From a virus: a stretch of DNA of 46,645 bases. Location of the stretch: the IMG/VR virus record IMGVR_UViG_3300020185_000080, positions 1 through 46,645 of that record; one strand, given 5' to 3'. Positions 2,449 to 40,463 of the stretch are shown here, piece after piece. Made by a program: the position numbers and the translations under genes. Below the pieces are notes generated by a model that saw only the letters and a program-made list of their open reading frames with translations, made no database searches and had not been told where the DNA came from. The stretch's first letter is position 1, and each line of letters starts with the position of its first letter.

Positions 2449-2472
2449 TAGTAGCTGAACTGCTATTCTATA
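2449..2472 (-). promoter_or_regulatory. Repeated palindrome site 1 (operator/promoter element)
   Basis: The core reads TAGTAGCTGAACTGCTATT on the plus strand and belongs to the genome-wide family with consensus AGTAGTT-S-ARCTACT. It lies upstream of the leftward lysis unit that starts at 2411. A -35-like TATAGA is present in the family position, but the matching -10 (AACGTT) is weak, so this may be an operator or a weak promoter. Confidence 0.5.
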
Positions 2473-2478
2473 CTATAG

Positions 2479-2838
2479 CTAGGTTTTTCGCTTGTTCATC
2501 ACGCCTTCAGCTAACCCGCCCCCAAAGTAAAACGTCACAATAATTATCATAATCATCGAAATACTAAACACTTCCATCACCTTAATGACGGGTTCCATTG
2601 GCTTGTCTAAGAAAACAAGAACAATACATAGCCAAAATGAGATAACGTATGAGCCACCAAACATTAATGCTAGGTAGCGTTGTGCAATCTTGAACGGCGC
2701 GTAAGCCGCTAGTAGGTCTGTTTTAGCCTTAGTGCGGGCCTCAACCATCTCAACATCTGAGGTGTGCATATCGTCAATGAGCTCTAGCCCTTTGCTAATC
2801 ACATCCCCACTACCAAAAATCGTTTTTAAAATACCCAT
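2479..2838 (-). CDS. Holin-like membrane protein (119 aa)
   Basis: The product has a soluble, charged N-terminal half. Two strong hydrophobic segments follow, near residues 55-77 (YLALMFGGSYVISFWLCIVL) and 88-108 (VFSISMIMIIIVTFYFGGGL), and it ends in the basic tail NKRKT. Layout and length resemble the holins of gene-transfer-agent/3TM type found in many marine phages. If so, it forms the inner-membrane lesion that lets the M15 endolysin out. It is separated from the 60-aa membrane gene by the 67-bp region carrying palindrome site 1. The holin call is inference from topology and neighbours. Confidence 0.65.
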   Translation of the reverse strand: MGILKTIFGSGDVISKGLELIDDMHTSDVEMVEARTKAKTDLLAAYAPFKIAQRYLALMFGGSYVISFWLCIVLVFLDKPMEPVIKVMEVFSISMIMIIIVTFYFGGGLAEGVMNKRKT

Positions 2839-2841
2839 GCG

Positions 2842-3270
2842 TTACCTCACATAAATGGCTACACCAAACAGAGCCCCTATTATCATAACCACAGTAATAA
2901 TTGTTACTAACAGGCCTGTTGCTAAATTTTCTTTACGTTGATTAACTTTAACCCTATGTTTCTTAGCCGCTACTTTTTGTTTTTTATAAAATTCATCACG
3001 GAATTGGCAGTACTTATAGTAGCCTTGAATAGACTGTTTGTTGAGCATAAACTCTAGCTCTTTTTCCTGCCGCTCGATTTGCTGCTTGGCTTGGTAAGCA
3101 CCCAACACATCGCCATTACCCGTTTTAACTTTCTGTTCAATCGCCTGGCTTGCACCAAAATACTTAGTTAAAGCTGAACCTGCGTCCGCAATCTCCTTGC
3201 CGTTAACTAGCGTTTTTTTAATCACTGCAAAGGCAGCATTGGCCGCCATCAATTCTGCTAGCATATCCAT
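2842..3270 (-). CDS. Membrane-anchored protein with long coiled coil
   Basis: The 142-aa protein has an alanine-rich start and a highly charged Lys/Glu/Gln helical middle (about residues 50-115). A single C-terminal membrane segment lies near 117-140 (GLLVTIITVVMIIGALFGVAI). It sits next to the holin-like gene with a 3-base gap. Tail-anchored coiled-coil proteins in lysis clusters can be virion, spanin-like or holin-regulating, but there is no lipobox or signal peptide to support a spanin. No family was recognised. Confidence 0.6.
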   Translation of the reverse strand: MDMLAELMAANAAFAVIKKTLVNGKEIADAGSALTKYFGASQAIEQKVKTGNGDVLGAYQAKQQIERQEKELEFMLNKQSIQGYYKYCQFRDEFYKKQKVAAKKHRVKVNQRKENLATGLLVTIITVVMIIGALFGVAIYVR

Positions 3271-3440
3271 AATCTCCGTGTGTACTCTACGGGAATCCCG
3301 TATGGTTCTCTTGATGGTTGAACAACAAGATACTCTGCATTTACTTTGTATGTAGTAGGTTCAATTAACGGCCTTTGCCCTTCGGGTGTAAGAGTTGGAG
3401 ACACATGCACGGGGTATAATTCCAAAGGGCTAGACCACAT
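3258..3440 (-). CDS. Small hypothetical protein (60 aa)
   Basis: The 60-aa frame (MWSSPLELYPVHVSPTLTPE...) overlaps the start of the next gene by 13 bases. Its ATG is embedded in the TAATG junction with the gene upstream, which supports translation. It is proline-rich at the N-terminus and has no membrane segment or recognised motif. Confidence 0.5.
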   Translation of the reverse strand: MWSSPLELYPVHVSPTLTPEGQRPLIEPTTYKVNAEYLVVQPSREPYGIPVEYTRRLWIC

Positions 3441-3667
3441 TAAATACTCTCAGTATTTTTTACACAGAATACGATAGTCGTCGCTCTCGGCTCTACTTTA
3501 ACTACTGTGTAGCCCAAAAAAAGATGGACTTCTCGTTCAAAATTAGGGAGCTTACTCACCTCAATAAGTTCTACCACGCACTTTTCCTTAGAGCTAAAAC
3601 TCTTCATCAGCACTGGCATTTTGATCTCACCTGTTGAGAGCATAATAGCGATGACAATTGAGTACAT
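3440..3667 (-). CDS. Small hypothetical protein (75 aa)
   Basis: The product starts MYSIVIAIMLSTGEIKMPV, so the N-terminus is mildly hydrophobic, and the rest alternates strands and charged residues. It is the first gene after palindrome site 2. An AAAGG Shine-Dalgarno lies 9 bases from the ATG, and the stop overlaps the next start as TAATG. No family was recognised. Position between the fibre array and the lysis cluster suggests an accessory role only by context. Confidence 0.55.
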   Translation of the reverse strand: MYSIVIAIMLSTGEIKMPVLMKSFSSKEKCVVELIEVSKLPNFEREVHLFLGYTVVKVEPRATTIVFCVKNTESI

Positions 3668-3676
3668 AATTAGCTA

Positions 3677-3705
3677 CCTTTATGAGTTGAACTACTATAT
3701 CAACA
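3677..3705 (-). promoter_or_regulatory. Repeated palindrome site 2
   Basis: GAGTTGAACTACTATATCAAC on the plus strand (3684-3704) matches the genome-wide element. The family -35 position reads TGTTGA on the minus strand, but the -10 position reads TAAAGG, which is also the Shine-Dalgarno of the gene starting at 3667. A promoter here is therefore doubtful, and the site may act as an operator or roadblock. The rest of the 94-bp gap (3668-3761) shows no terminator. Confidence 0.45.
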
Positions 3706-3761
3706 CCTAGTTGCCTTCGGCTTGTTGTAGCCAGAGAAGGTTTCACCTCTGTACTCTATGG

Positions 3762-4124: not shown

Positions 4125-4133
4125 ATAATCCTC

Positions 4134-13020: not shown

Positions 13021-13431
13021 TTACCCAAATAAAGCTTGGTTAAGATAGACTGCACCGAGTGTCGGTATCGCCCCATAAACAAGTGAGACATCTATCACAT
13101 CTGTCACACTTACTGTGTCTGTCATTCCGCGCTGGAACTGTACGTTAATCACAATCGCATCCGCGACTGAAACTACATCAGCAACTTCCTTCGTAAAGAT
13201 CAGGCTCAATGCATCTATTGCTGATACGTTGTCCGCTGCCACCTTGCTCAGTGCGATTGAAGTGTTATCAACAATCGTCGCAGCGTCAGCAAAAAACCGA
13301 TTCTTTGACTCGGCATCCACGTAGATACCCGCTGCAACCAACTGCGTGTAGATCCGATCCGCAATTTCAACTTGTCGAGTTGTTGCAACAAGTTCGACCT
13401 TCGCTGTAGTCGCTTCTAATTTAAGTGCCAT
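13021..13431 (-). CDS. Structural protein of the fibre region (136 aa)
   Basis: The 136-aa product contains two imperfect repeats around a (A/V)D(V/T)VSV(A/T)D motif (KEVADVVSVADAIVI and MTDTVSVTDVIDVS) and a C-terminal AIPTLGAVYLNQALFG. Repeats of this kind occur in phage tail-adaptor and fibre proteins. Its start is fused to the stop of the 124-aa gene upstream by a one-base overlap. No enzyme motif is present. Confidence 0.6.
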   Translation of the reverse strand: MALKLEATTAKVELVATTRQVEIADRIYTQLVAAGIYVDAESKNRFFADAATIVDNTSIALSKVAADNVSAIDALSLIFTKEVADVVSVADAIVINVQFQRGMTDTVSVTDVIDVSLVYGAIPTLGAVYLNQALFG

Positions 13432-13805
13432 TAGTAATCGCCACGTACCTTAAACTTCAGCTGGTCATAAACAGTTTGTATTGCACCGCTTGAATAGGTA
13501 ACTTCAACTTCACCCGTAAATGTCCCTGCAGTATCAAGCACGCCAGTAGGCCACTGCATGAAAACTTTTCCATCCGTGTATGGCGCTTGTAAAGTCATTG
13601 TGATTGTCGATTTAAGTGCTGTCGAACCAAGGGCTTTGAATTTCAACTTGGCTGTCGCACCAGTTAAATCAATAGGAGCCCAAGTAGATGAATTTTCTGA
13701 GTCGAGTATTTGACCCGCTGCTGCGGCGTTAGAATCACGCAATGTCAGGTTTAGTTCAGGCAGCGTGTCGCCTTTCACTAATTGGATGGTATCGTAATAC
13801 GCCAT
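13431..13805 (-). CDS. Baseplate/fibre attachment protein, BppU-N-like
   Basis: The 124-aa protein (MAYYDTIQLVKGDTLPELNL) shows the pattern KGDTLP.L.LTLRD....IDLTGATAKLKFK....... and ends QTVYDQLKFKVRGDY. This resembles the N-terminal domain of baseplate upper proteins and related fibre-anchoring beta sandwiches. It is the first gene of the fibre operon, 39 bases after the predicted start point of the promoter at site 3, and has a GAGG Shine-Dalgarno 7 bases from the ATG. Confidence 0.65.
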   Translation of the reverse strand: MAYYDTIQLVKGDTLPELNLTLRDSNAAAAGQILDSENSSTWAPIDLTGATAKLKFKALGSTALKSTITMTLQAPYTDGKVFMQWPTGVLDTAGTFTGEVEVTYSSGAIQTVYDQLKFKVRGDY

Positions 13806-13850: not shown

Positions 13851-13879
13851 ATTATATTAGCTCAACTGCTATTTCACTA
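13851..13879 (-). promoter_or_regulatory. Promoter with embedded palindrome, site 3 (fibre operon)
   Basis: On the minus strand -35 TAGTGA (13879-13874) and -10 TATAAT (13856-13851, exact consensus) are 17 bases apart. The repeated palindrome (AGCAGTTGAGCTA) fills the spacer. The predicted start lies near 13844, about 40 bases upstream of the ATG at 13805. This is the clearest promoter of the family. Confidence 0.68.
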
Positions 13880-13886: not shown

Positions 13887-16800
13887 TTAATCACCAGGCC
13901 ACCAATTCTTATATTGTGAGAAAAATGGCGTTACACGCCGTATTGTCTCTAAGGTTGAATCATTGCCCGTAGCACTGTTATAAACACCTTGACCAAAACC
14001 AAACGTAGGTACAAGTGTGCTTAATCCATCATCCCAGCTCTCTGCATTCATAACGCCGTAGCCTAATTCAAATGCACCCAACGTGCCTGACTTAGAGAAC
14101 ACTTCCATTGCGTACTTAGTGTCGCCCATGTTTTCAGTTCTATCGACCCCTTTCCAAAGCTCGCGTAATTCCATAGCAAACATTGTCAGCCCCGCAATCG
14201 CTACACCGCCAACAACAATAGGCACCATTGCATACGCTCCAGCCGACAGCATCCCTTCGCCTTTAGCATCAGAAAATCTACGTTTAGCCTGGCGTAATAA
14301 ACCCATCACCAATATGTCCGTTATAGCGTACAAGAATTGCTTCAAATGAAATGCAATCTTCATGTACGGGTTATTACCCCATGCAGGGTTTTGGAATCGG
14401 CTGGGGCGGAAAGAACTCTCAGTCACAAACTGCATAATCGCCCCATTAACCGCTCGGACAGAATCAGCTTCTACCTTACTCAACCCTTCAGTAAATGCTG
14501 GTTTGCCTAGCGCACGCCATGTTTTAACTTGCCTAGCCGTAACATGGAACGCATTTAGTTCTTCAAGTTGGTTAAAATCTGCTGCTTTCTCAATGTACCT
14601 CATGCCTAATGCAGTCGAAAATGTACGAGATGCCTTTGTTATCGCTTGCTGACCATTCAAAATAAAGTACTTACTTGCCATCTTCTGCGTAATAGTGCCG
14701 TTGTATGCTTCGTTTGCCGCATTACCTTGAATCTGAGCAAGTCCGTTTGACAGTACAGTACCTATGTCCATACCAATGCGACGCGCTTCACGAAGATCAA
14801 GTCCCTTAAACATATCTTTTACGCTTAACAAGTTAGCTGACCTTGCAATCGCCATACCCAACTCAGGAATAGACGCAACCCCAGAGTTAGCTAAGATGTT
14901 CATGTTAACTACGTTAAGTAATGTGTCCTGTGATTTGCGCAACTTACTGTTCATTGAGGTGCCAGTTCGACCCATCACCCCATCAAGTAGTGTCAATGCT
15001 TCATCAACCCCAGCTTGTCCGTGTTTCTTCTCAATACGCCCCATCGCTTCATGCCAACGCTTGTTCGGACTCCAGACTTTACGACCTGAACCTTCATCCC
15101 ATTTACCACCAAAAGGTCGAGCAACTTTAGTCAAGTCATCTTGGATAACATAGCCGCCAAAAGTATGTTCCCAACTAGCACGTTTGGCTGCAGACGCTAT
15201 GTAATGGGACATGATTGCATCAGGCTCCATTACTAAGTATTCCTTTAGATCGGCGTAAGGCACAGCCGATAGTATAGAATCAGCGAATGCGTGAGCACCG
15301 ACAGGCTTGCCAGGGGCAATCGTGCGCTCGTTAAACCCTTGACCATCGAGTAGATAAGCAATGCGGCTATTCATTTCTGCATCACCCATCTGCTTAAAGA
15401 CGTCGTACTGCATCAACATGGCTTTAAACGCTTCGCGCTTACCATCCACTTGATGATGATCAAAAGCTTGCGGGATCATGTCATTGCGAACTTGGTATGT
15501 TGGCATGTAGCCCACCAAATCAGCGTTAATATCGTTAATCATCTTCCGCAAGATCAACGAATGCTCAGTAACATTGTTGTTGTTTAGATCATCAAACGCT
15601 TGGCGTACCGCTTTTTGTTTGCCAATCTTTTTCATAGCAGTGGAGTAAAGCGCTTCGTAACGCTGCGTCAGCTCCATATTAAAGTTTTCGTAAGACTTCT
15701 CACCTGTGCGAGATCCTGTAGTCGATGCTTGCTGAAACAATAGCGCGGCAAGGTTCTTATCTAAGCGTTTAAAGTTACTGCTTACGTTACCTAATATCTT
15801 ATGCCCGAACTTTAAGAATTTATTGTGAGTTATCGGTTCCTTCTTTGTGCGGAACTTAGCCATGTTCAAGACTTCGCCCTTAGTTTCAGGAGCCGCTTGA
15901 GCTGAGACATCCGAGCGCAGGATAACCCCATCCAAATACTGTGAGAATGTCTCATTAAATGGGGAGCGCACTGCCTTCGTTAACACAGCCCAAAGCCCTT
16001 TCAGCTTCTTCACTAGCTCACGGAAATGTGAAGCTACGTTTAACAAGTCACCCCGATTGCGCTTCTCCTTATTTAAACCATCTTCTTCAGTAATGTATGC
16101 CTTATTACGAAGCACCCCTTGGGTCAAAGACAAAGCAACCTGATCGGCATACCATTCTTTAAACGCAGCCGAATCAGACGCTTCACTATAGTTCTGACGA
16201 TCTGCAGCAAACTCAGACAAAATAGAGGCTTTGTTCTTTGCTGAAGCATTAGCCCAAGAGAAGTCATAAACTAAATGCCCTACTTCGTGTGCCACCATTG
16301 AATATGTTTGCGGAGACATATTGGCTGCATTAGTATTAGTGAGACTCGAAGGCATCATAATGATCGCAAACTCGCCCATGTTCACGTAAGCTGCCTGCTT
16401 ATTCTCAATGCTTGCCTTCAATCTTGCTTTAAGGTTCTTAGCTTCTTTAGCAGTCAACACTCCTGACTTTGCCAAATCCTTAATCATAGTAGCTGCGTTA
16501 GACGTATCAGTAATAGCAACATTCTGCTTGATACCTACTGCGTTTAATAAGTTGGCTACTGTAGTCTGTACAGCCGCTAAATTCCCAAACGTCTTAACCC
16601 CTTTAGTAAAGTACCTACGTAACAATGCTTTTCGTGCAGTAGCTACATTCGCCTTACCTTGTGTGGTTGGGCCAAATCGAGTACTTGGCAGACCTTGCCC
16701 TTCTTTAGCCATCAAATTAGAGTCAGTCCATTGTGGGCCATACACGCGATAAGACGTCACCACCTGACCACCCTCAATGTCGATAGCAACAGTGACAGGA

Positions 16801-19800
16801 GCAAAAGAAGGATCATATCCTTCACCCTTCGTTCTAGGGTAAAGCGTCTGAACCCCTGTACGCCGAGCTTCATCTTGGTCGTTGTAAAGTTCAGTCGAAT
16901 CCTCTGATTGAAACTCTCTTACGTATTCATCATTCGCCCAGGCATTACCCATCTGGTTATCAGCAGCCATACTTTCTGGGTTATCCGCGTCTTCATCGAA
17001 AACTTCATCCTTTGCGTCCTGTTCCTCTTGACTGTAAACAGGATCAGGTAAGAACTTCAGTTTCTCAAAGCGACTGTCTGCATCCAACACTAGGCCATCA
17101 CGAACACTTTGTTCGGTATCACCTAGAATGTCGCCCGCTGGCTTGTCCGTCAACTTCGTGCCGGTATCTTTTCCACTAGTGGGAGACTTGTCTTTCTCCC
17201 TGCGCAAATTGCCAGCATGAGCTTCTTTAAGTTGCTTAAACAAATCAATGGTTTCATCAATTAAGTTTTTACCGCCTGCTTGTTCAATAGCCGCGCTAAG
17301 CTCATCCTGAATCTCTTTCTTTTCTTCTTTAGTAGACCCTGCGCCTATCTCAGAATGTTGTTCAACATAATCTGCTAAATAACCTCTTACAATTAACCGC
17401 TCAAGGTTATCACGAAGGAATTTGCGTTCTGAAGTAATTTTCTTAATCGCTTCATTTATCCCTGATAGAAACGCACCATCGGTTATTTTCTTCGCAGAAC
17501 TCTTTGTGTCGTAAGTAGGGTTTTTCTCCTTTAGCCGCTGCGATAAAGAAACGAGTTCTGCGGACTTCTCTTGGATCATCTCGTAAATACTAATGTGCGG
17601 CGACTTTGATTCAGCTTGATTAAAGTTAGCTTTACGCGGTGTGTTGGGTAGGACAGGTATAGGATTAGCGTTCAGACCACCTGTATCTTGCTCTTTACGC
17701 GTGTTCCTATGAACATCGTTCATCAAGTCTTTAACGTACAATGCAGCAATCTCAGATTCCTCGCTGCCTTCTTCCTCAAGCGTTTTAACAAGTGCTTCCA
17801 TCTGATCGCGCTTATCCTCTAAAAGAACCTGCGCATTCTCAAGAAAGTTATACACCGCACTGTCTTTGTTAGCTTCGTTCTGTTGCAATGAGTTCGCCTT
17901 ACGCGCATCCCCAACAGTCTTAAACGTGCCATCGGCCTCTTGGAAAATAACTAAAGAATCTGGAATAACTCTTGGCAATGTATACTGCCTTTGCAGATCG
18001 TATGGCTCGGTACGGCCTAAGTCTGCTTTCAGACGAGGTTGAGAGCCAACCGCCATACGTGCCAGGTTGCCTAGTAATGTTTCAAGCGCCTCTGAAACTG
18101 AACTGACTGTCGATTGATCAGAGTAACGAGCAATCGCAATCGCATCGAGCATAACAGTTTTTGCAGATTGTCCATTAGCCTCAAGCTGCACCTCAAGTAA
18201 ATTTGCCCCATCATTAGCAACCGACCTTGCATAGAATATCTTAGCTTCGTCGCGACCTTTTATACCATTATCACCAAAAATACCATTGTGCATACGCTCT
18301 GACTGAGTGCCTGTCACTTGCCCTGTAACGTCATTAATAATACTAGCCGACTGATGCGCTAACTCGTCGGCCTGCACCAAAGGCGCTAACTTCAATGCAA
18401 TGGCTTGTGTAGAGTCAACGTCCCGTATTGCATACTCTTCAAACAACGCTGCCGTATTCTCGGACTTAGCAATGGCTTCTTTAGTCATGCCATCTACGTT
18501 CTTAGTACCGCCTGTAATCTTCTGTAAATCCGCGTTATCAGGAAACATCCATGAGGACAATGTATCCAATGAATGCGATGATGATTCAAAACGAATGCCT
18601 TTTGATAAACGTAACGTATCAATCATGTGGTTGGGTGTGTACCCAAACTTCTCTTTAAAAATAGCCGCGTCAAACCGAGCGTTGTGCATAACAAGTGTTA
18701 CGTTAGGATCTTTCTGCCAGCCTGCTACAAGTGTCGCTATTTCTTCATCAGTCTGTATGTATTGAGTGGCGTCACCTTCTTTTACCGCTAGTCCTAAGAT
18801 CTCAAATTGCGGATCTGTTATGTAGGCTTCAGTACTAAGATCTGGATTCTTCAGTGAGTAACCCGTCGCAGTATTAAAGAAAGTCTCAAAGTCGACTGTT
18901 ATAATTCGCTTACCTGCTAAGTATTCACTACCGTTTGGTTTTAACGCATTGAACTTAGCGAGGCGCGAAACTGCTGACTCAAATGCAGTAACAAGAGGGG
19001 TATTAATGTCTGTAAATACCTCACGAAAGCGCATGGTCGCCCGATACATAGTATGAAAAAACTGATTTATAGAAGCGCGCTCTTGAGAAACTGTTTCTAT
19101 TACAGGTGACGTTCCTGCGGTATTTGCAGATACAGGCCGCCTGTGTTGTTCTTCAGCTACCGATGCATCGTAATAATTTTTATCATCGCGATTAATAATA
19201 TTGTTTTTAATCAGTAGCTCTAGTGTTCTATTCACATCCATCTCGGTGTGAAGAAATATCTCTCGAATATTTTCTTTAAACGTAGTACCCGTCCGAAGTT
19301 CTGGATTATGCATCTGCATAATACTGTTAACATATCGCTCCATCATGGACGTATTAACCATCATGCTCGGGAAATTAGGATTAACTTTACCCCTTGCATT
19401 AGTCATATCAGACTTCAACATTTCAAATAACTTTTCTGCACTGTGAACTGAGTCTCTAGACATCATATCTAAGGCTGTGAAGACTGCTGTTGCGTTATCA
19501 AGCATAAACCTATCAACATAAGACTCAGCAAATGCTTTACGCCTAAAACCTTTCTGCTTACTTAGCGCGTCTGAAATTAAAGTAAGGTCTATGCGTCCAC
19601 GTAATAACAATTTACCTAACGTGATCTTAGCGGCCCCTGCTGCCTCTTTGTTTGCTGCATCCTCCTGGCGCGTATTAAACACCAAAGAAAGCATATCAAA
19701 AAAGCGCTTATTATCAGGGTGATTTACAGCCTTCCTGAGATTAGGAGCCTTATGAGAGTTAGCCATCTTGATCAGTTTATCTACTCTCGTACTGAATTTT

Positions 19801-22884: not shown

Positions 22885-25296
22885 CTATTGATTCAGGTCT
22901 TGCTTCTTTTTAAGGTGTTTATGCGCATCTGCAGTAGCTTGTGCTTTAGTAATATACGGGAACTGCTTCATTAGCAACTTGACCATATCATCAACAGATT
23001 CGTACCCATTCACGCCTCCCCCAGTAACGTAGATACCCGTATCTGGCGCAGCGGCTTTAACAAGTCGACCGAAATCACCAACATGATTAGAACCTGTTGT
23101 CCCACCCATACCCCACACTCCATCAGTGCCTGGTCCACTTTTAGCAACTTCCTGTGCAAGATGCTGGGCTAATATAGAAAGTAAGTGAGTCTGGCCCGCA
23201 CTAATAGGCTGTCCCTTAACTAAATTCAATTTATAGATTTGATCAATCTGAGTTTTATTTACAGTCATCATGTGATTCATGTACTTATCAAACTCATCTC
23301 GTGGCATAAATTGGCCCACTTCTTTCCCGTCAACTACGATCCCTGCAGCACCTAATCCTTTGGTAATTGCTCCACCCATAGCGCCTTCGTTATGAGTTTC
23401 AACGGCGGCTTCATCCGCAGCGGTTGCTGCTCTCGATGCACTAGTTGTCGCCGCGCTATCACCTAGAGGGGTATAAATACTTTTAGATGGATTGTCAGGG
23501 TCAACGCTTACTTGATGCACTACGCCATCAAATGTCACTGTTGAAGTTTTTATCGAAGGAACTTCCACAGGGTTTGCACGCCCTGTTAATTGATAACGCA
23601 CCATGTCCTTATTGGTTATAGTAAAACCTGCCTCTTTAAGAATAAGCATATCCACAGCTCGGCTTGCCAACGTACCAGCGCTAACAGTCGAACCTCCCTT
23701 CACTGTACTTCCAACAACTCGTTCTTGAGCAGCGGCCACTTGTTCAGTAGTAATTTCTGTAGAGGCTAGTTGCGATGTAGCTTCTACCTCAGCCTCTGAA
23801 GCTAATTGTTTTTTACTCTTATCCGTTTTGCCCTCAAGGGTAGCTTCTTCAGTTTTTTGGTCTCTCAGTTTTTGTCGTTCGTCATTAATCTTTATAAGTT
23901 TCTGCTGATCCAAATAGGCTTGTGTTTGCGCTTGTTGGTCTGATGAACCAGGATCAGTATTATCCCAATCTGCCTTAGATGCCACCCCATTATATCCCGC
24001 AGAAATATCTTGACCTAGAGCAACTGTACTGTTCACAGCCTGCCCACCATAACGCTTCAGACCACTCCATATATCTCCAGCTAATCCACCAACAGCTGTA
24101 GATGCTGTATCTGCTACTTCACCAATAGCTTCTCCCGTAGTAAGTGGATCTTCCGCCAACTGATCTATAAAACCATCTACACCTTGCCCTTGGTTACTTC
24201 CATACATTTCACTAACATAGGCTTGAGCCTCTTCGGGAGTCATGTCGAGTTCATCAACTAACGCTTGAGTTACACCCATCATGCTCTTAGGGTAATTATT
24301 AGCTACCAAACTAGGGTTCTTAAAAATATTATAAACCAATCTATTCGCAGCTATTTCTTGCGCATCGGGGTCTCTATTATAAGCACGCCCGCCTGTCTTT
24401 GCCCCTGTGTAAAGAGGACCAGGGCGATTGCTTCCAAATCTAACTGCTGGGTCTACTGCTGGGTCATTAATATCAGCGCTTAGGTTCTCTCCCAAGCCTT
24501 GAGTTAAAGTCGGATCTGTTTGTGTTTGCTGTTGCTGCTGCCCAGACAAAGCAGTAGTAGTTTGTCCTAGTTGTTGAGCATTCAAAGAGTCAGCTTCTTG
24601 GGCTGCCATAGCTTGATTTGTCGCCGAATCAATGACCATTGAAGTGTTAGCTCCATAATCAGCCTGACCTGCACGCTCTATAAAGGCTACAATCTGTTCC
24701 GCTGTAAACGCATCTGCGCCCTCACCACCAAGCATCTGCCCAATGTCCGTCTTCTGCCCATTTGCATCTTCCATCATCGGTACAAATACTTTTGTACTTT
24801 TGCCATCGCGACCCGGCCCTGCAATCTCTTCAAACCCTGCAAATGTAGTCCCTTCAGGTAGAAAGCCTTGACCCTCCAATATATCGGCAATTAAATCCTC
24901 GACTACAGGCATCTGAGCAGGATCATTCAGTGCTTGTTGTGCCCCCTCACGACTTGCTCTAAGTACAAGGTTTTCAGCCTGCTTACCCGTAATCTTCTTT
25001 TTCTTAATGTCTAGGTCAACATCACTAGCTTCTATCGACTGCTCTTGTATCAATAATGCGTTGTCTCTACCTTTCTGACCATCCTCATAAATTCGTTTAT
25101 CCTCTACGACTTTTGCTTTTGCACGCTCAGCCGCATCTTGGTTCAAGCGCAGTTGTTCGTCGGCCCTGATATTGCCTAGTGCTTGCTGCTGAAGCTGATC
25201 TGCGTAGTTATCATCTGCCACTTGATCCCGTTCTGCCTGACGGCGACGATCTTTGAGCCCCATGTACATTGCCCAGACATTATCTAAAGTAGCCAT
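22885..25296 (-). CDS. Internal virion/ejection protein (803 aa)
   Basis: The N-terminal 120 residues are a long charged coiled coil (MYMGLKDRRRQAERDQVADD, AERAKAKVVEDKR). A Gln-rich run (QQQQQTQTD) lies near residue 255, further helices follow, and the C-terminal 150 residues are more compact and include GTDGVWGMGGTTGSNHVGDF. There is no lysozyme or transglycosylase motif. The gene lies 10 bases upstream of the giant protein in the same operon. That order (small internal proteins, a middle-sized one, then the giant) is like T7 gp14-gp15-gp16, so a DNA-ejectosome role is the best inference. Confidence 0.62.
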   Translation of the reverse strand: MATLDNVWAMYMGLKDRRRQAERDQVADDNYADQLQQQALGNIRADEQLRLNQDAAERAKAKVVEDKRIYEDGQKGRDNALLIQEQSIEASDVDLDIKKKKITGKQAENLVLRASREGAQQALNDPAQMPVVEDLIADILEGQGFLPEGTTFAGFEEIAGPGRDGKSTKVFVPMMEDANGQKTDIGQMLGGEGADAFTAEQIVAFIERAGQADYGANTSMVIDSATNQAMAAQEADSLNAQQLGQTTTALSGQQQQQTQTDPTLTQGLGENLSADINDPAVDPAVRFGSNRPGPLYTGAKTGGRAYNRDPDAQEIAANRLVYNIFKNPSLVANNYPKSMMGVTQALVDELDMTPEEAQAYVSEMYGSNQGQGVDGFIDQLAEDPLTTGEAIGEVADTASTAVGGLAGDIWSGLKRYGGQAVNSTVALGQDISAGYNGVASKADWDNTDPGSSDQQAQTQAYLDQQKLIKINDERQKLRDQKTEEATLEGKTDKSKKQLASEAEVEATSQLASTEITTEQVAAAQERVVGSTVKGGSTVSAGTLASRAVDMLILKEAGFTITNKDMVRYQLTGRANPVEVPSIKTSTVTFDGVVHQVSVDPDNPSKSIYTPLGDSAATTSASRAATAADEAAVETHNEGAMGGAITKGLGAAGIVVDGKEVGQFMPRDEFDKYMNHMMTVNKTQIDQIYKLNLVKGQPISAGQTHLLSILAQHLAQEVAKSGPGTDGVWGMGGTTGSNHVGDFGRLVKAAAPDTGIYVTGGGVNGYESVDDMVKLLMKQFPYITKAQATADAHKHLKKKQDLNQ

Positions 25297-28522: not shown

Positions 28523-28556
28523 TGAAAAAAATGGCTCCCCCTCGAAAGAGGGAGCC
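28523..28556 (-). terminator. Intrinsic terminator after the capsid gene
   Basis: On the minus strand GGCTCC-CTC-TTTC-GAG-(GG)-GGAGCC forms a hairpin with a two-base bulge, followed by seven T residues (ATTTTTTTC). It begins 7 bases after the capsid stop. It would cap capsid mRNA from the promoter at site 4 and lower expression of the adaptor genes downstream. Confidence 0.8.
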
Positions 28557-28562: not shown

Positions 28563-29681
28563 TTAAAGTGCAGTGTCGACAGTAATAACGCCGAAGTCTT
28601 CCAACAATGTTGGATTAGCAGGGTTGCCTTTGAACTGTGGCTTTAAGAAGCCAAAGATCTTTCCGCAAGCAATGCCAGGTTGGTTATTGTAGTCGAAGTA
28701 ATCTTCGTCCCAATAAGCCGCGCCTAAATCCGCCATGCCTAGTGCCTGAGCACCGCATAACAACATACGTTGGCCTTCAGTATTACCAGATGCACACATC
28801 TTAGATCCAGATGCAGCGCCACGGGTATCGAACACATGACGGAACTCATGGATAATCATGCCGTCAACCATTACTGAGTTGGTTCCTTTGAATAGACTAT
28901 TCTTATCACCACGAACACCAGCATGGCGCACGTTGGCAATAAAATCAGAGTCTAGCTTTAACTGAGCCATACCCTGTGGAGTCATAAACAAATGATAGAC
29001 CTCATCACCCCCTGTACCCTTAATGCCACGAATATAGTTATCCTTAGCATGAGCCTTCAAGTTTACGATGTCCTTATAGGTCGTCGCAGTAAGTACGCCA
29101 TCAGCGGCAGCAAAGCCAGTGCCAGCGGTTACACCTGAAGATTTTAAGTGAACACAGCGGTTCGTGGTTGGCGCTACGTTAGCAGCTGGAGCGAAGTCCA
29201 AAGTGCTAAGTACGTTAGTCGCACGGGTTGAGCCGTTAGTATTCAAAGTGTATGGCAATGAGCTCATGCTCAAGAATGCCATTTGGTCAAGACGATCACC
29301 CATCCAATAACCTAACTTATCGCGTGATTGCTCACGGAAGTTAACAATGGATTTCTGATCAGCCATACGACCTTGTAAGCGGTTAGCATGACGCAACTGA
29401 TCAATCTGGATCACTGTGTCATACGCTTTCATGGCCTCTTCATTGCCTTCCAGCGTAGCATCACCTGCGATACCATCACCTTCTAAGTCAGCAACTAGAG
29501 TTAGAACGGCGCGAGCGCCCTTCTCGGATTTGGTCAACGTCTCAATACGTTGAACCATCGCGTTATGGCCTTTACCAGCAAATTGGTTAACAAAAGACGT
29601 ATTACGAGCGACGCGCCAAAGGTCACGAGCCCATGCAGTCTTTTGTTCGCTAGTAAGGGCAGCAAAATTGGTTGTAGCCAT
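28563..29681 (-). CDS. Major capsid protein, N4-gp56 type (372 aa)
   Basis: The 372-aa protein (MATTNFAALTSEQKTAWARD) shows the pattern of the N4-gp56 major capsid family: an N-terminal WARDLWRVARNTSFVNQFAG helix, the RIETLTKSEKGARAVLTLVA strand, a long helix with AYDTVIQIDQLRHANRLQGR, and a C-terminal GADLGAAYWDEDYFDYNNQP-like block. It forms the icosahedral shell with an HK97 fold. The gene has its own promoter (site 4), a 170-base leader and a terminator, consistent with high expression relative to neighbours. Length is within the usual range for the family. Confidence 0.88.
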   Translation of the reverse strand: MATTNFAALTSEQKTAWARDLWRVARNTSFVNQFAGKGHNAMVQRIETLTKSEKGARAVLTLVADLEGDGIAGDATLEGNEEAMKAYDTVIQIDQLRHANRLQGRMADQKSIVNFREQSRDKLGYWMGDRLDQMAFLSMSSLPYTLNTNGSTRATNVLSTLDFAPAANVAPTTNRCVHLKSSGVTAGTGFAAADGVLTATTYKDIVNLKAHAKDNYIRGIKGTGGDEVYHLFMTPQGMAQLKLDSDFIANVRHAGVRGDKNSLFKGTNSVMVDGMIIHEFRHVFDTRGAASGSKMCASGNTEGQRMLLCGAQALGMADLGAAYWDEDYFDYNNQPGIACGKIFGFLKPQFKGNPANPTLLEDFGVITVDTAL

Positions 29682-29859: not shown

Positions 29860-29888
29860 ATGATAATAGCTGAACTACTATTTCACAA
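29860..29888 (-). promoter_or_regulatory. Promoter with embedded palindrome, site 4 (capsid)
   Basis: On the minus strand -35 TTGTGA (29888-29883) and -10 TATCAT (29865-29860) are 17 bases apart, with AATAGTAGTTCAGCTAT as spacer. A partial second copy of the motif (GAGCTACTACTG, plus strand) lies at 29842-29853. The leader to the capsid ATG is about 170 bases. Confidence 0.65.
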
Positions 29889-33045: not shown

Positions 33046-33074
33046 ATCGAAAGTAGTTGAGCTGCTATTCTACC
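33046..33074 (-). promoter_or_regulatory. Repeated palindrome site 5 (portal)
   Basis: AGTAGTTGAGCTGCTATT (plus strand, from 33052) is a full copy of the repeated element. In the family register the -35 would be GGTAGA and the -10 TTCGAT, both weak. It lies 36-64 bases upstream of the portal ATG. An operator or weak promoter is likely. Confidence 0.5.
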
Positions 33075-33181: not shown

Positions 33182-34960
33182 CTATGCGCTCATGGAAGAA
33201 CGCCTATTATGACTGCTTAACAGCCCTGCCAGACGTTTCTCGCGCCAGCCTTGCACGGGTTTCTTAACCACGGCTCTAGGTGTCACTATGTCATCGAGCA
33301 TTAATCCAATCCACGCCAAAGCATCCACGCAGTCATCGTGTACGCCCATTGGGAAACGCAAAAACTCGTTCACCATCAGTTGTACTGTGTCATCACCGCT
33401 GGGAAAATACACCATGCCCTGCTGCATCCGACCTTGTATGGATCGCGCGCGAGTCTGCTTATCTCTTTTACCAGGCTTTAATCCTTCGTAATAAAATGAA
33501 TATAAGCTCCGCTCACGAATGCGTTGATTTAGTAGCGGCCCCATCGCCATTTCTATCTGACCCCGCTCAATGCCTGTAATCTTTGACTTCCAGCGCACGT
33601 ACATGTCCAAGATCGCTTCCACTATTTCAAGCGAGCCTTTCTTGAATCGTTTGACATCGAGTACCCAGATGCTGTCTTGCTGGTCGACGCCGACTGTGAT
33701 CCCCACTGTGAAATCGTTCGCTTCATTTTTGCCAATCGCCAAGTCCCACGCGGTGTAAGTGTGTAACTCGTCAAGGCTAGGTCGTTCCGTGGGCTTATAC
33801 CATCGAAACATGTCTCTGGTAAAATACTCGCCATCATCAGCAACAGGATTTTGCTGATACAAAGCACTCCAATCGCGAGGCCCAACAGCACGCTTAATAC
33901 GTAGCAAAGCAGTTTCATCGTAGCGTTCAGGGTGTAACGCTTGATCCTTTTTACGGAAAGCTTCATCTTCTGTTGCCAACGCTGGATACTGTATAACGTC
34001 CCATTCATCGCCTTCATTCTCTTTCATTTTAGTGAGTAAGCGCCCTGCCAGATCATCGTCGTGCCAACGCGTTAAAATTATGAGTACTCCGCCTCCTGGT
34101 GCAAGTCGTGTGTACGCTGTTGAGGTGTACCAGTTCCATATACTAGAGCGGTTTGTTTCTGATTCTGCGTCATCGCGGTTCTTAATCGGATCGTCGATGA
34201 TTAAAACGTGGGCTCCGCGTCCTGTGATCGGGCCACCTACGCCCGCTGCCACATATCCACCTCGACTTGTCGTGTTCCATCGCTGTGCTGATTGGCTGTC
34301 TTTATCTAACTTAGTCTCTTTAAATACTTGGTGATAACGCTGATCACGTAAGAGTTCACGCACCTTGCGCGAGAAGTCCATTGCCAAATCACCGGTGTAC
34401 GAGCAACTGATTACTTCATGCTCTGGGTGACGACCCAAGTGCCAGCCAGGGAATGTTTTACTCGCAAGCTCACTTTTGCCATGACGCGGTGGCATAAAAA
34501 GCATTAATCGTGGGCTTTTACGATCAGCAACGTCTTTAGAGAACTGTTCTAATCGAGCGCAGATGTCTTTATGCACCCACCCTGCTTCGTACTGATCATT
34601 AAATCGTTCTACGAATGGTAGTAATCGACGACGGCATAACTCTCGTCGCATTAATTCAAGTTTAGCTTCTTCTTTCGCATTAAATGCGTCAGCCGCTGCC
34701 TTTTCATCGTCAATGATTTGTTGCGCAGCTATCTCTCGATGCGTGGGCCGATCCACTGCTTTTTTAAGCTGCTTTCGTTTCGTTTTAGCCACTAAGGGTT
34801 TCTTAGGCACTGCCTCTTTTCGAGCCTGTGCGCTGTCAGTCACGTCTTGTGCAAAGTCACACTTAACGCAAGTATTCTCTGACGCAAACAACGTCTGATC
34901 TGTATCACACGTAGGGCAACGCTTACCTTTCTTATGCTTGATCATCAGCGTACTCAGCAT
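33182..34960 (-). CDS. terL: Large terminase subunit with N-terminal zinc ribbon
   Basis: This ATP-driven DNA packaging motor also has nuclease activity. The N-terminus has a C15-x2-C18 and C31-x2-C34 zinc-ribbon motif that most TerL proteins lack. The ATPase domain has Walker A PPRHGKSE (157-164), Walker B VLIIDDP (D256-D257) and the LTRWH motif (296-300). The RNase H-like nuclease has D406 (YTAWDLAIG), E465 (GIERG) and D542/D543 (HDDCVDALAW). It overlaps terS by 29 bases from this ATG, or by 14 if the in-frame ATG at 34945 is used; neither has a strong Shine-Dalgarno. Confidence 0.92.
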   Translation of the reverse strand: MLSTLMIKHKKGKRCPTCDTDQTLFASENTCVKCDFAQDVTDSAQARKEAVPKKPLVAKTKRKQLKKAVDRPTHREIAAQQIIDDEKAAADAFNAKEEAKLELMRRELCRRRLLPFVERFNDQYEAGWVHKDICARLEQFSKDVADRKSPRLMLFMPPRHGKSELASKTFPGWHLGRHPEHEVISCSYTGDLAMDFSRKVRELLRDQRYHQVFKETKLDKDSQSAQRWNTTSRGGYVAAGVGGPITGRGAHVLIIDDPIKNRDDAESETNRSSIWNWYTSTAYTRLAPGGGVLIILTRWHDDDLAGRLLTKMKENEGDEWDVIQYPALATEDEAFRKKDQALHPERYDETALLRIKRAVGPRDWSALYQQNPVADDGEYFTRDMFRWYKPTERPSLDELHTYTAWDLAIGKNEANDFTVGITVGVDQQDSIWVLDVKRFKKGSLEIVEAILDMYVRWKSKITGIERGQIEMAMGPLLNQRIRERSLYSFYYEGLKPGKRDKQTRARSIQGRMQQGMVYFPSGDDTVQLMVNEFLRFPMGVHDDCVDALAWIGLMLDDIVTPRAVVKKPVQGWREKRLAGLLSSHNRRSSMSA

Positions 34961-35519
34961 CTGTTATGTCATGGGCTTGTGCCATAAGGCTGTCGCTGGC
35001 TGCACCCATTAACTTCAATAATGATGCGTCATCTAGTTCCGCTAACTGATCTACTTTTTGTATATTCGTCACGTTTACATCAATGACTTGTTTATCTTGT
35101 GACAAACCATGCAACTTCATCTGCATTTCTACACCGCGAAACCATTCCATTGCGTTAGCGGACATTCTTTTACCCATCTCAATGTCCATGTGGGCATCGA
35201 CCATATCGTATTTCACCATTTCACTGGCTATGTCCATTCGGTCTTGGTGCAACATCTCCAAGTGATGCTTCACCGCAGGGTCATTGAGTAGGTTCGTTGC
35301 TTTGCAAACACCCATCCCTGCTCGCTTGGCGGCTGCCAATTTAGTCAGGCCCATCGAAATTCCAGCAACAAGATTAGTCTCCTGTGCATTTAAATTACGT
35401 AGGTCGTGTATGTGTCCGTTGGCTTGTGACGCGATTTCTAAGCCGCGCATTTCAAGTTCTGCTTCGGGGGAAGTCAGATCTAAAGGTATATCGTAAATCG
35501 ACTTAGGGGTATCAGTCAT
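34932..35519 (-). CDS. terS: Small terminase subunit
   Basis: The 195-aa protein lies directly upstream of terL and overlaps it. Residues about 43-85 form a helix-turn-helix-like region (LNAQETNLVAGISMGLTKLA then KRAGMGVCKATNLLNDPAVK), the usual DNA-recognition fold of small terminases. A helical oligomerisation segment follows, and the C-terminus is acidic (DITDAEYADDQA). It should bind the packaging site and load TerL. It is the first gene of the leftward arm, with an intrinsic terminator 20 bases before its ATG. Assignment rests on position and fold, as TerS sequences vary. Confidence 0.8.
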   Translation of the reverse strand: MTDTPKSIYDIPLDLTSPEAELEMRGLEIASQANGHIHDLRNLNAQETNLVAGISMGLTKLAAAKRAGMGVCKATNLLNDPAVKHHLEMLHQDRMDIASEMVKYDMVDAHMDIEMGKRMSANAMEWFRGVEMQMKLHGLSQDKQVIDVNVTNIQKVDQLAELDDASLLKLMGAASDSLMAQAHDITDAEYADDQA

Positions 35520-35538: not shown

Positions 35539-35564
35539 AAAAAAAGGGGGCGTTGCCACCCCCT
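35539..35564 (-). terminator. Intrinsic terminator inside the terS leader
   Basis: On the minus strand AGGGGG-TGGCAACG-CCCCCT forms a 6-bp G-C hairpin followed by seven T residues. It lies downstream of promoter site 6 (start near 35598) and 20 bases before the terS ATG. It is a strong-looking terminator inside a leader, so late transcription should need antitermination or readthrough. Confidence 0.8.
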
Positions 35565-35600: not shown

Positions 35601-35633
35601 TTGGATAATAGTAGCTCAACTAATATTACGCAA
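35601..35633. promoter_or_regulatory. Divergent control site with embedded palindrome, site 6
   Basis: Leftward: -35 TTGCGT (35633-35628) and -10 TATTAT (35610-35605), 17 bases apart, toward terS. Rightward: -35 TTGGAT (35601-35606) and -10 TATTAC (35624-35629), also 17 bases apart, toward the early genes. The palindrome AGTAGCTCAACTA lies in both spacers. Whether one or both promoters work is not known. Confidence 0.6.
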
Positions 35634-35973: not shown

Positions 35974-36217
35974 TGGCAAGGTATGGGTAGTTCGGTGTGT
36001 GAACCCAATGCAGTGCGCACACGGGGACGACGTAGTTGTTGCGGTATTCAACACTCAGATGGGGGCACGGTTGGACTCCGAAAGAAGAGGTTACCCAACA
36101 AGGGTGATAGGCCCAATGGTAGTGCAGCAGCCCAAGGCCGCTGAGATCCAAGCGAAGATCGAGCAGCTACAACGCGCATTAGTTAAGCAACTAGAGAAGG
36201 AGCAGGATCATGTATGA
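35966..36217 (+). CDS. Small early protein (83 aa)
   Basis: The protein starts MSNGKVWVVRCVNPMQCAHG, with a compact strand-rich N-terminal half containing two cysteines. It ends in an amphipathic helix (AAEIQAKIEQLQRALVKQLE) closing with KEQDHV. The last codons are also the Shine-Dalgarno of the next gene. The gene is bounded by two copies of AGGAGCAGGATCATG (35954-35968 and 36198-36212), so it can be seen as a duplicated or inserted cassette. Unknown function. Confidence 0.68.
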   Translation: MSNGKVWVVRCVNPMQCAHGDDVVVAVFNTQMGARLDSERRGYPTRVIGPMVVQQPKAAEIQAKIEQLQRALVKQLEKEQDHV

Positions 36218-36357: not shown

Positions 36358-37911
36358 ATGAATACATTTACAACAGTACCACAAGTAATCACAGCTTTAC
36401 AGACAGTTGCCGCTAAAGGCACTGAATGGGAAGCTATCTTCAATAACCCCCAAGAGGCTATCAAAGCTCTCAAGGCACAGCCTGCTAAAAAGGCTATGTC
36501 GAAAGACATGCGGGTGTACGACACATCGCCAGTTAGGGATGCAGTTTGGCAGATGCAGCGTGTAATGAGTAAGTCATCGGCACACGCTAGAGGATTGGTG
36601 GGCATGGGTAAGTTGGATGCGCCCATTGCTGCTCAGGCATTGGACGCTATTCATCAGTCGTTTGAAAATATGCGAGCTGACCTTGCCGCACATACTAGAA
36701 CGGCGGACGGCGTACTCAGTCATGAGGATGTCACAATCACTGTCGTTGCTGGCGACTTTGACGAGATGCGTGCGCAGTCCCCCACTGCTGACCTTTACGG
36801 GATAGAAGATGGTGAGACACAGGTGATGGAAGACTCTTACGAGTCATCCGCCCATTGGGATGCAGAAATGCAGGACAATGGGGACAATAGTACTAAGGCT
36901 GCAAAGCCCAGTGAGTCGGAAACCACAACGATGGCAGCGATGCACACTGCTTGGGACGCTTTGCTCTTAGAGCATGGTCGCACCCGTTGGAGTGATTCAC
37001 TGTATGCGGAAGCAGCGTTTGAAGATACATCGTGGCCTGACCACGATCTGTGGGAAGGTTTCACAGAGCGCATGGCATCTGCCGCACTCAACAGTGTGGA
37101 CTACGCCAAAGGTGCTGCTGCGAAAGCAGACGCTAAAGAAAAAGGGCGCAAGCGTTGCTACGTGCTTACTACTCCCTTCGAGGACAGTAAGCTCAAGCCC
37201 TATACTCGCTGGGCAATTAATGCTGGGATGCGCCGCATCTGGCGTGATCGTCAAGTCCTTGCTGGTCGATTGGAGGCTTACATAACCCAGTTGTCGGATA
37301 TGGAAGCAGCCGCGTTTGACGAGGAACGTACCAATGCCCCTTCAAATTGGTACAGCTTAGTACTGGCGAGACCCGAGCCACGGGAAACGTCTCTGATGTA
37401 TTTCGATGTATCGGAAAACGAGTTATGGGATAACGTACGCGGAAGCGTACTCTCAAAAGAGGCTGCGTGGTGTGAAGGAATTGGGTTCGAGGGTGAGAAC
37501 TACAAATCTATTACCAACGGCACTTCTCAGGTGCACATGGCAGAGTGGGAAGGTAACACTCCTAAAATAGAGCACGAAAGTAGGTGGATTAACTACTTAA
37601 TTGAGAAGTTGGAGGGGCTTATCCAAGGATTGGATAGCCTCTACGCTGAACTCGGTGTGGTTGAGCAAGCAGGTTCATACCTTTGGAAGTGGCGTTCCGA
37701 AGCGCCCAAGGTTGACTCGTTCAACTCCCCGCCTACTCCACCTGTGTACTGGAACCTCAAAGGGTTCTACCTCACAGAAGAGGATGCGCTAGTCGCATTA
37801 GAGGCTGAGTTTGAGGATCTCAGTGAGAAGCTGGCCGCTGACGAAGGTGACGCTTTCGAGCGCGCTTTTCTGGCTAATATGGTTATGCACGGCGTTGGTG
37901 GCGGTGCATGA
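36358..37911 (+). CDS. Unrecognised 517-aa early protein
   Basis: The product begins MNTFTTVPQVITALQTVAAK. It has an N-terminal helical region (1-120), an acidic, Ser-rich segment (about 130-190, containing DNGDNSTKAAKPSESETTTM), a basic patch (AKADAKEKGRKRCYVLTTPF near 255-275), and a Trp-rich C-terminal half (for example RWAINAGMRRIWRDRQVLA, SYLWKWRSEAP). There is no Walker motif, zinc site or nuclease signature. It has AAGGAG 8 bases before the ATG and overlaps the next gene by 4 bases. Size and early position suggest an important host-takeover or DNA-metabolism role, but this is conjecture. Confidence 0.7.
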   Translation: MNTFTTVPQVITALQTVAAKGTEWEAIFNNPQEAIKALKAQPAKKAMSKDMRVYDTSPVRDAVWQMQRVMSKSSAHARGLVGMGKLDAPIAAQALDAIHQSFENMRADLAAHTRTADGVLSHEDVTITVVAGDFDEMRAQSPTADLYGIEDGETQVMEDSYESSAHWDAEMQDNGDNSTKAAKPSESETTTMAAMHTAWDALLLEHGRTRWSDSLYAEAAFEDTSWPDHDLWEGFTERMASAALNSVDYAKGAAAKADAKEKGRKRCYVLTTPFEDSKLKPYTRWAINAGMRRIWRDRQVLAGRLEAYITQLSDMEAAAFDEERTNAPSNWYSLVLARPEPRETSLMYFDVSENELWDNVRGSVLSKEAAWCEGIGFEGENYKSITNGTSQVHMAEWEGNTPKIEHESRWINYLIEKLEGLIQGLDSLYAELGVVEQAGSYLWKWRSEAPKVDSFNSPPTPPVYWNLKGFYLTEEDALVALEAEFEDLSEKLAADEGDAFERAFLANMVMHGVGGGA

Positions 37912-38821: not shown

Positions 38822-38849
38822 ATTTTGCCTATGCCTCTTGGAGAAAATC

Positions 38850-39236: not shown

Positions 39237-39341
39237 CCCTCGGATAAGTCCGCAGGACGGGGGCTCCAGCTGGGCTCACTTTTCGGTACATGTATAGTTT
39301 TCTGTGTACCGACACTATTATCGCTATAAAAGGAGCAGTTT

Positions 39342-39638
39342 ATGACTGAAAACGAGCAGAAGTTACTCGATTTTTTCCGCAACATCAAGATTAAGGCCGA
39401 TGCTCGATTGCGTGAGCAACGAACCATAATTAATGAGCTGCGATGCGAATGCGATGCGTTGGCTAAAGAAAGTGCCGTGCATCGAACGGGCGAAGAACAC
39501 TCGGACGAGCTGCTGGACATAGAAATAGAGCGCACTCGCGGCTTAACTGTTCTGAACACGCATCTAATGGAGGATAACGCCCGCCTCCGAAGAGAAAACC
39601 TCGGAATTTGGACGGCAGGCATTACTGCTAGTCTATAG
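39342..39638 (+). CDS. Coiled-coil protein (98 aa)
   Basis: The product (MTENEQKLLDFFRNIKIKAD...) is mainly charged helix: REQRTIINELRCECDALAKE, then a short polar break, then IEIERTRGLTVLNTHLMEDN. It follows a strong AAAGGAG leader that is a 17-base exact copy of the leader of the first early gene (AAAGGAGCAGTTTATGA at 35790 and 39329). It is the only gene between the candidate origin and the next noncoding stretch. Unknown function. Confidence 0.65.
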   Translation: MTENEQKLLDFFRNIKIKADARLREQRTIINELRCECDALAKESAVHRTGEEHSDELLDIEIERTRGLTVLNTHLMEDNARLRRENLGIWTAGITASL

Positions 39639-39645
39639 CAATTTT

Positions 39646-39725
39646 TGACACCTTGTAACCATGTACATGGCTTACTTTGTAATTCCCCGAAAGTAGTACG
39701 GGTATAGGCAAGGTGTCACCCTTTT
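39646..39725 (+). other. Three-way-junction-like RNA/terminator element
   Basis: TGACACCTTG (39646-39655) pairs perfectly with CAAGGTGTCA (39709-39718). Inside lie the palindrome CCATGTACATGG (39659-39670) and CCCG (39686-39689) with CGGG (39699-39702). CCC and TTTT follow. The end GTGTCACCCTTTT is identical to that of the terminator at 38770-38821, so it may be a terminator with an extra fold. Confidence 0.5.
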
Positions 39726-39841
39726 CTGGCTAATTCATGGAGTAGACTCAGCTTGGTCTGTGGTGAGTTAGTTTGCCGAATTCCTCCCTCGGGTAAGCTG
39801 GGAAGAACAACTTGGGGTAGCGCCCAGCATTCCCCTGTAGT

Positions 39842-39888
39842 ACTCCCTACCAATGGGGAGCAGTACCCCACTCCCTACCAATGGGGAG
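39842..39888 (+). repeat. Two 19-bp direct repeats with internal hairpins
   Basis: ACTCCCTACCAATGGGGAG occurs at 39842-39860 and 39870-39888. Each copy can form CTCCC/GGGAG. The 28-bp period is near 2.7 helical turns. They could be protein-binding sites or part of an mRNA leader. Confidence 0.7.
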
Positions 39889-39953
39889 TGGCCTAATCAC
39901 CCACGGCGTTGCATTCGGCAGCGTCTTAATTAAATCAGTATAGGAAGTATATT

Positions 39954-40397
39954 ATGTCTAAGTCTCTTAAAGCATTACTAGGTGGATTCACACCAACTGA
40001 ACTACCACAGGATATGAACTCACTCATACCAGAGGGTGAATACAGTGCCATTATCGATAAGGTCGAAGTCAAAACCTCTAAAGCAGGCAATGCCTACTTG
40101 TCTGTATGGCACAAACTACAAGGCAACGCCTACTATAATAATAGTATGGTGTTTGATAACCTCAACGTGGGCCACTCTGATCCGAAGGTGCAGGCTTCTG
40201 CATTGGGGACTCTGGGCGCACTGTTGAAATCAGCAGGTATGACTCCCCAGGCAGGAGACACTCTTGACGATATGGTGTCATCTTTGCCAGGTTGTTCTAC
40301 GACCATGTACGTCACTCGCCGAGATGGCGCTAACGGATACGGGCCTAGCAATAATGTTAGCCGCTATGTATCTCCCGCCATCCCTGACGCTGCGTAG
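39954..40397 (+). CDS. DUF669-like single-strand DNA-binding candidate (147 aa)
   Basis: The pattern IPEGEYSAIIDKVEVKTSKA then GNAYLSVWHKL and VFDNLNVGHSDPKVQASALG matches the phage DUF669 family, which often lies near recombination or replication genes and is thought to act like a single-strand binding protein. The family's OB-like beta start and following helix are visible, and the C-terminus (NNVSRYVSPAIPDAA) is less acidic than classical SSB tails. It lies ahead of the polymerase block but is separated from it by the large palindrome (site 7), so it may form its own transcript. Confidence 0.68.
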   Translation: MSKSLKALLGGFTPTELPQDMNSLIPEGEYSAIIDKVEVKTSKAGNAYLSVWHKLQGNAYYNNSMVFDNLNVGHSDPKVQASALGTLGALLKSAGMTPQAGDTLDDMVSSLPGCSTTMYVTRRDGANGYGPSNNVSRYVSPAIPDAA

Positions 40398-40420
40398 TCA
40401 CACAATGACTCAAAGCTCAT

Positions 40421-40463
40421 TAACAGTTCAGCTACTTGCACTTAGTAGTTGAACTGTTATATT
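40421..40463 (+). promoter_or_regulatory. Promoter with double palindrome, site 7 (csrA-polymerase operon)
   Basis: AACAGTTCAGCTACT (40422-40436) and AGTAGTTGAACTGTT (40444-40458) form a 15-bp inverted repeat, one mismatch, with a 7-base loop. Two copies of the repeated element face each other. -35 TTGCAC (40436-40441) and -10 TATATT (40458-40463), 16 bases apart, point rightward to the gene at 40505. Each half also matches the single-copy sites elsewhere. Confidence 0.65.

Follow-up and report, generated by a model that had tools for sequence, protein, structure and literature searches.

The IMG/VR virus record IMGVR_UViG_3300020185_000080 (46,645 bases, analysed at full length and called the window below) carries a palindromic element that recurs at dispersed, mostly intergenic places, and we compare it here with the operators of described phage repressors. 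Lambda operators occur only at OR and OL, beside cI. The repressor of Streptomyces phage phiC31 uses dispersed conserved inverted repeats as palindromic operators; both that repressor and its host differ from the present case. Repression from many sites is already known for the P1 C1 repressor, which has 22 dispersed operators that are asymmetric 17-mers (PMC8546580), and for the stoperators of cluster A mycobacteriophages (L5-type), in which a monomeric repressor recognises more than twenty asymmetric 13-mers (PMC9283540). In anatomy the present phage resembles JC1 and phages like it. JC1 is a temperate Bcep22-like podophage (Lessievirus) of ~61 kb with an integrase, a repressor, a giant protein and a csrA-like gene (PMC9144972). 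The text of the JC1 paper contains neither "operator" nor "palindrom" and reports no operator family (PMC9144972). Symmetric operators of lambda type spread over early and late units, as proposed below, are new by comparison; no description of dispersed operators in this lineage, or with lambda-type sites, was found in a literature search outside of which most subscription literature lay.

We conclude that the palindromes very probably serve as dispersed operators of a lambda-CI-like repressor, which this temperate phage would itself encode in a region of ~16 kb that is missing from the record.

A dispersed 19-bp palindrome

The window is 93% coding and 7% non-coding, and its gene set is of podophage type (terminase large subunit, portal, major head protein, internal virion protein, family A DNA polymerase and endolysin). 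Late units run leftward from 35.5 kb to 0.2 kb and early units rightward from ~35.8 kb onward. Over both extends a family of odd-length palindromes of 19 bp, ATARYAGYTSARCTRYTAT (Table 1). A preliminary description of the sequence had reported a 15-bp palindromic core at seven places, every copy intergenic and the one near 40422-40458 doubled and inverted. The palindrome is present at all seven, to within 1-2 bases of the positions given, and the doubled copy is real, lying within 40420-40460 with 22 bp between centres. The core proved to be part of a longer unit, and while the seven reported copies are indeed intergenic, a further, weaker copy centred at 40963 reaches into the end of a gene.

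With up to 3 mismatches allowed, the core AGTAGTTNARCTACT has 30 matches in the window, compared with 9.4 +/- 4.0 in shuffles (maximum 22). The 19-mer has eight window sites at up to 2 mismatches (2457, 3689, 13863, 29872, 33059, 35617, 40451 and 40963) against 0.07 in Markov shuffles, and nine at up to 3 mismatches against 0.69. Eight of these nine are intergenic in a window that is almost entirely coding; the ninth, 40963, lies just before a csrA-like gene and was kept, with some uncertainty, as a site that is partly coding yet conserved. An in-gene match at 41909, with 3 mismatches, was dropped as a likely coding coincidence.

The element is also present in related phages. Relatives with portal proteins 86-100% identical to that of the window carry it at orthologous places, where the flanking intergenic DNA has drifted, and the DNA of these motif-conserving relatives is 74-99% identical. 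The -35 (TTGYGA) and -10 (TATYAT) boxes that flank the copy ahead of the major head gene are mostly retained as well. Nine positions (T2, A3, A6, G7, T9, A11, C13, T14 and T17) are invariant across 43 distinct sites. Scanning IMG/VR with the motif alone returned many relatives of the phage, a second, distant group and single matches in unrelated contigs, and a portal-based scan of bacterial genomes returned a single contig of a metagenome-assembled genome.

Table 1. Palindrome copies and associated signals in the window, with positions in window coordinates.
Feature	Position	Centre	Strand	Context and conservation
Operator-like palindrome	2448..2466	2457	-	In gap of 67 bp ahead of leftward gene 2229-2411; no clear sigma-70 promoter; kept in L144 (17409) and L152 (18556)
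Operator-like palindrome	3680..3698	3689	-	Ends at ribosome-binding site of gene 3440-3667; no clear promoter; kept in L144 (18651)
Operator-like palindrome	13854..13872	13863	-	Upstream of gene 13431-13805; TATAAT at +7 from centre; kept in L091, L093 and L125
Operator-like palindrome	29863..29881	29872	-	Upstream of major head protein gene 28563-29681; kept in at least 10 relatives
Sigma-70-like promoter TTGTGA-17-TATCAT	29860..29888		-	Spacer is palindrome 29872; boxes TTGYGA/TATYAT in most relatives
Operator-like palindrome	33050..33068	33059	-	Upstream of portal gene, downstream of terminator-like hairpin following terminase gene
Operator-like palindrome	35608..35626	35617	-	Upstream of gene 34932-35519, itself ahead of terminase large subunit gene
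Sigma-70-like promoter TTGCGT-17-TATTAT	35605..35633		-	Surrounds palindrome 35617
Intrinsic terminator	35545..35564		-	Between 35617 promoter and gene 34932-35519; GC hairpin at equivalent spot in relatives
Degenerate palindrome copy	36176..36194		+	Good copy in equivalent region of G002/L012, upstream of own rightward unit
Left copy of paired operator	40420..40438	40429	+	Before rightward early unit; kept in L007, L012, L013 and L116
Right copy of paired operator	40442..40460	40451	+	22 bp from left centre; TTGCAC-16-TATATT around it
Weaker palindrome copy	40954..40972	40963	+	Overlaps end of gene 40801-41004; adjoins ribosome-binding site of csrA-like gene 40985-41224; conserved but coding

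A CI-like repressor and its co-variation with the palindrome

The record is a fragment, and the ~16 kb that it lacks are seen in the related contigs L135, L136 and L144. L144 overlaps window bases 1-2891 at 96.7% identity and carries a repressor gene further on; G001 (L007/L135) overlaps the window from 39.7 to 46.5 kb at 95-96% and extends past the other end. Judging by these coordinates, the additional ~16 kb would bring the genome to near 63 kb. Genes of the missing region include a tyrosine integrase (Arm-DNA-bind_2 and Phage_integrase, in G001), the CI-like repressor, a helicase and DUF5906/VapE-like genes. Since integrase and repressor genes are both found in overlapping contigs of the same phage, we regard it as temperate.

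The CI-like protein, encoded at L135:2072-2731 (minus strand) and 100% identical between L144 and G001, has 219 residues, an HTH_3 match and, over residues 23-215, a match to phrog_4 "transcriptional repressor". Its best relative of solved structure is lambda repressor (E 0.0013 as a single sequence, 0.0002 as a profile). An AlphaFold model of the protein is confident for residues ~12-88 only, and the predicted DNA-binding domain superposes on the lambda repressor-operator complex 1lmb (TM 0.83 by target, rmsd 1.8), which points to a five-helix DNA-binding domain of the lambda-repressor type. The aligned recognition helix retains Q and S at the places of lambda Q44 and S45.

The missing part holds four more copies of the palindrome, of which one stands a short way ahead of the CI gene and another separates it from the integrase gene; together with the 8-9 copies in the window, many copies of one site are thus distributed over early and late regions. 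The copy ahead of CI overlaps the -35 box of a TTGACA-N19-TATAAT promoter in five lineages, with its centre ~43 bp before the predicted start, a position similar to that occupied by lambda CI when it activates its own promoter. This copy lies in coding sequence under synonymous constraint: five of its seven codons are invariant, compared with 14 of 67 elsewhere, and the two that vary change only at the Y positions of the operator. A copy overlapping the -35 box immediately upstream of the repressor gene suggests that the repressor may regulate itself.

Co-variation between repressor and palindrome was followed across three phage groups with different CI-like repressors, each of which has its own dispersed odd palindrome. 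Group 1 combines the recognition helix KQQSAISQY with ATARYAGYTSARCTRYTAT. Group 2 (L158-L164, found by CI homology) has the helix SQGAISHY or TQSAISHY and the intergenic palindrome ATATTAGYTATRCTAATAT, copies of which stand beside CI in several members, L163 having weaker copies only. Group 3 consists of G016, a 55-kb relative with a portal protein 57% identical and the helix GQSNFSHY, its CI being encoded at L172:16521-17060; its palindrome, ATAGTACNANTNGTACTAT, is found at about a dozen places, ahead of the corresponding units and behind CI. The half-site changes from ..AG to ..AC as the helix residues change from AIS to NFS.

In a de novo search that made no use of the motif, dispersed odd palindromes outnumbered those of every shuffle in all CI-bearing records tested. 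The largest intergenic family numbered 7 in the window, 8 in G002, 4 in G001, 13 in G016, 6 in L165 and 5 in L160, in each case more than in any of 30 shuffles. In nine other relatives the largest family had 1-4 members, mostly within the shuffled range, and no dispersed family was found in them, the exceptions G009 and G010 being local clusters. Neither an integrase nor an HTH_3 protein was found in those nine, several of which are fragments. The co-variation and this pattern of presence and absence suggest that the repressor occupies the palindromes and keeps the units silent.

Several observations weigh against this conclusion. The CI gene is absent from the window itself and is linked to it by way of overlapping contigs. 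The C-terminal domain of the CI-like protein is modelled poorly (pLDDT < 50) and matches no solved structure, so that dimerisation and inducibility are tentative. As to an S24/LexA-like domain with a Ser-Lys dyad in this part, as needed for RecA-stimulated self-cleavage, the phrog_4 match extends over residues 23-215, but Pfam gave no S24 match and the low-confidence model no match in the PDB. In the L135/L136 neighbourhood, neither a divergent cro nor an OR/OL cluster was found beside CI. Several sites have no recognisable promoter, and the window-type records all belong to one group and are hence not independent data points.

Proposed mechanism and alternative explanations

About half of the sites sit between sigma-70-like -35 and -10 boxes, with a predicted start ~19 bp from the palindrome centre. 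The preliminary description had the element filling the promoter spacer in four cases, and these are borne out at 29872, 35617 and 40451 (boxes in Table 1) and at 13863, where TATAAT is accompanied by a poor -35. At 2457, 3689 and 33059 a recognisable sigma-70 promoter was looked for at the palindrome and not found. The same holds for a convincing promoter at sites 1034 and 6967 of G016 (L172), whose palindromes enclose the Shine-Dalgarno sequence AGGAGG directly ahead of a start codon, the operator coinciding with the ribosome-binding site. In a general promoter scan, sigma-70-like sites were not in excess over shuffles, and the promoter assignments therefore derive solely from position and conservation.

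In the mechanism that we propose, a repressor dimer would bind each odd-length palindrome of 17-19 bp with one helix-turn-helix per half-site. Where the palindrome lies between the -35 and -10 boxes, at about half of the sites, the bound dimer would cover the spacer and so exclude host RNA polymerase. Plain promoter occlusion does not account for every site; at those with no visible promoter in short intra-operon gaps the repressor might act on weak promoters or form a roadblock to elongation, and 2457, 3689 and the G016 sites 1034 and 6967 may be roadblocks of a stoperator-like kind. At 40429/40451, ahead of the early unit, two dimers would bind, probably cooperatively, a 22-bp spacing on the same face of the DNA being fitting for a cooperative pair. 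As the predicted outcome, the prophage would keep its early and late units silent and confer immunity to superinfection. A fuller version, in which a symmetric lambda-type repressor site doubles as promoter operator and elongation roadblock (2457 and 3689; AGGAGG at the palindrome centre in G016), every early and late unit is directly repressed, and the repressor and its dozen or so sites changed specificity together between the three groups, is offered tentatively, with the balance of probability against it.

Each of the described systems agrees with this arrangement in part. P1 C1 is likewise a single repressor that in the prophage serves about 20 operators spread through the genome, but the P1 operators are 17-bp and asymmetric, whereas the present sites are symmetric, of odd length and associated with a lambda-like helix-turn-helix repressor. 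L5-type sites, more than 20 in number, are similarly found in promoters and short intergenic gaps genome-wide (PMC9283540, PMC6550527). Their 13-bp sequence is asymmetric, follows the direction of transcription and is recognised by a monomer, whereas the palindromes described here are presumably bound by dimers. The comparison with stoperators drawn in the preliminary description consequently applies to the logic of the system and not to the form of the site, the asymmetric recognition sequence of both L5 and P1 being replaced here by a 19-bp palindrome of lambda type. Lambda CI provides the closest solved structure of a DNA-binding domain, shares the Q and S of the recognition helix, and has operators that are odd-length palindromes (17-bp); paired sites about two helical turns apart and a copy near -43 of the repressor's predicted promoter are further likenesses. 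Unlike the lambda operators, clustered at OR and OL between cI and a divergent cro, the present sites are spread over early and late units.

The earlier idea, that a single phage regulator controls most transcription units as a multi-site repressor does, is well supported at its core, although the protein then named for the role, the product of 44560-45246, is probably the wrong one. That this or some other phage DNA-binding protein binds the palindrome, as repressor or activator, appears improbable. The gene is encoded within the window and matches phrog_323 "transcriptional regulator, D5-like". In motif-bearing relatives, however, only the C-terminal ~100 residues are kept (64% and 45% identity), yet the motif is nearly unchanged there, and a search of groups 2 and 3, which have equivalent palindromes, yielded no homologue; this poor conservation makes it an unlikely regulator. 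Slightly less probable again is a binding site for a host transcription factor, borrowed at phage promoters. The phage presumably uses host RNA polymerase, as family scans covering the major proteins of the window and those proteins of the missing region that were tested recognised no phage RNA polymerase, a result that also led us to reject promoters for such a polymerase. A host factor would not explain why the palindrome switches between groups along with the recognition helix of the phage CI, or why related phages without a CI match have no dispersed family.

A nucleic-acid hairpin, whether an RNA leader, a terminator or a single-stranded promoter hairpin of N4 type, is suggested by the symmetry of the element and by the pair at 40421-40459, which can form a 16-bp stem and was flagged in a terminator scan. 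It is very improbable, being largely refuted by the want of compensatory change. At the three most variable mirrored pairs, 4/16, 5/15 and 8/12, Watson-Crick pairing is seen in 13, 17 and 16 of 43 sites, compared with 19.7, 20.9 and 23.1 expected, and where one half departs from the consensus at 4/16 or 8/12, the other half tends to match it. Pairing below independence indicates that the sites behave as sites of a dimeric protein rather than as nucleic-acid stems. In L013 the long stem of the inverted pair is weakened with each 19-mer retained, and Rfam has no match for the element; leader-RNA and N4-type readings were rejected on these grounds. As a terminator, 40421-40459 was rejected for its weak T-tract and because the stem is not maintained where each site stays. 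Equally hard to credit is a mere conserved part of sigma-70 promoters of the phage that no protein of its own recognises, a view that the copies lying between boxes would favour, but the spacer is conserved more than the boxes, some copies have no boxes, and two of those in G016 enclose a ribosome-binding site.

If the palindromes are operators of the CI-like repressor, an uncultivated lineage of temperate phages silences its whole genome through lambda-type operators in dispersed positions. The groups would also constitute a natural experiment, the repressor helix having changed in concert with a dozen or so scattered sites, and would make specificity change in multi-site immunity systems directly testable. 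In metagenomic phages, the palindrome can be used to locate the repressor and the transcription units and to recognise the immunity group.

Other features of the window

The terminator at 35545-35564 is strong and leaves only ~25 bp before gene 34932-35519, which suggests a leader terminator; possibly, the late unit is subject to antitermination there. A second strong terminator (28533-28556, - strand) stands immediately after the major head gene, within the late unit. The csrA-like gene (40985-41224, + strand) encodes a CsrA-like RNA-binding protein and has the weaker operator copy 40963 at its ribosome-binding site. At 13887-22874 (- strand) a protein of 2,995 residues is encoded in which residues 67-156 form a staphylococcal-nuclease domain and residues 1379-1500 a 3'-5' exonuclease domain of DNA polymerase A type, a pairing unusual for a giant phage protein. 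Two more large proteins, of 803 and 517 residues (22885-25296, - strand, and 36358-37911, + strand), have no PHROGs or Pfam match.

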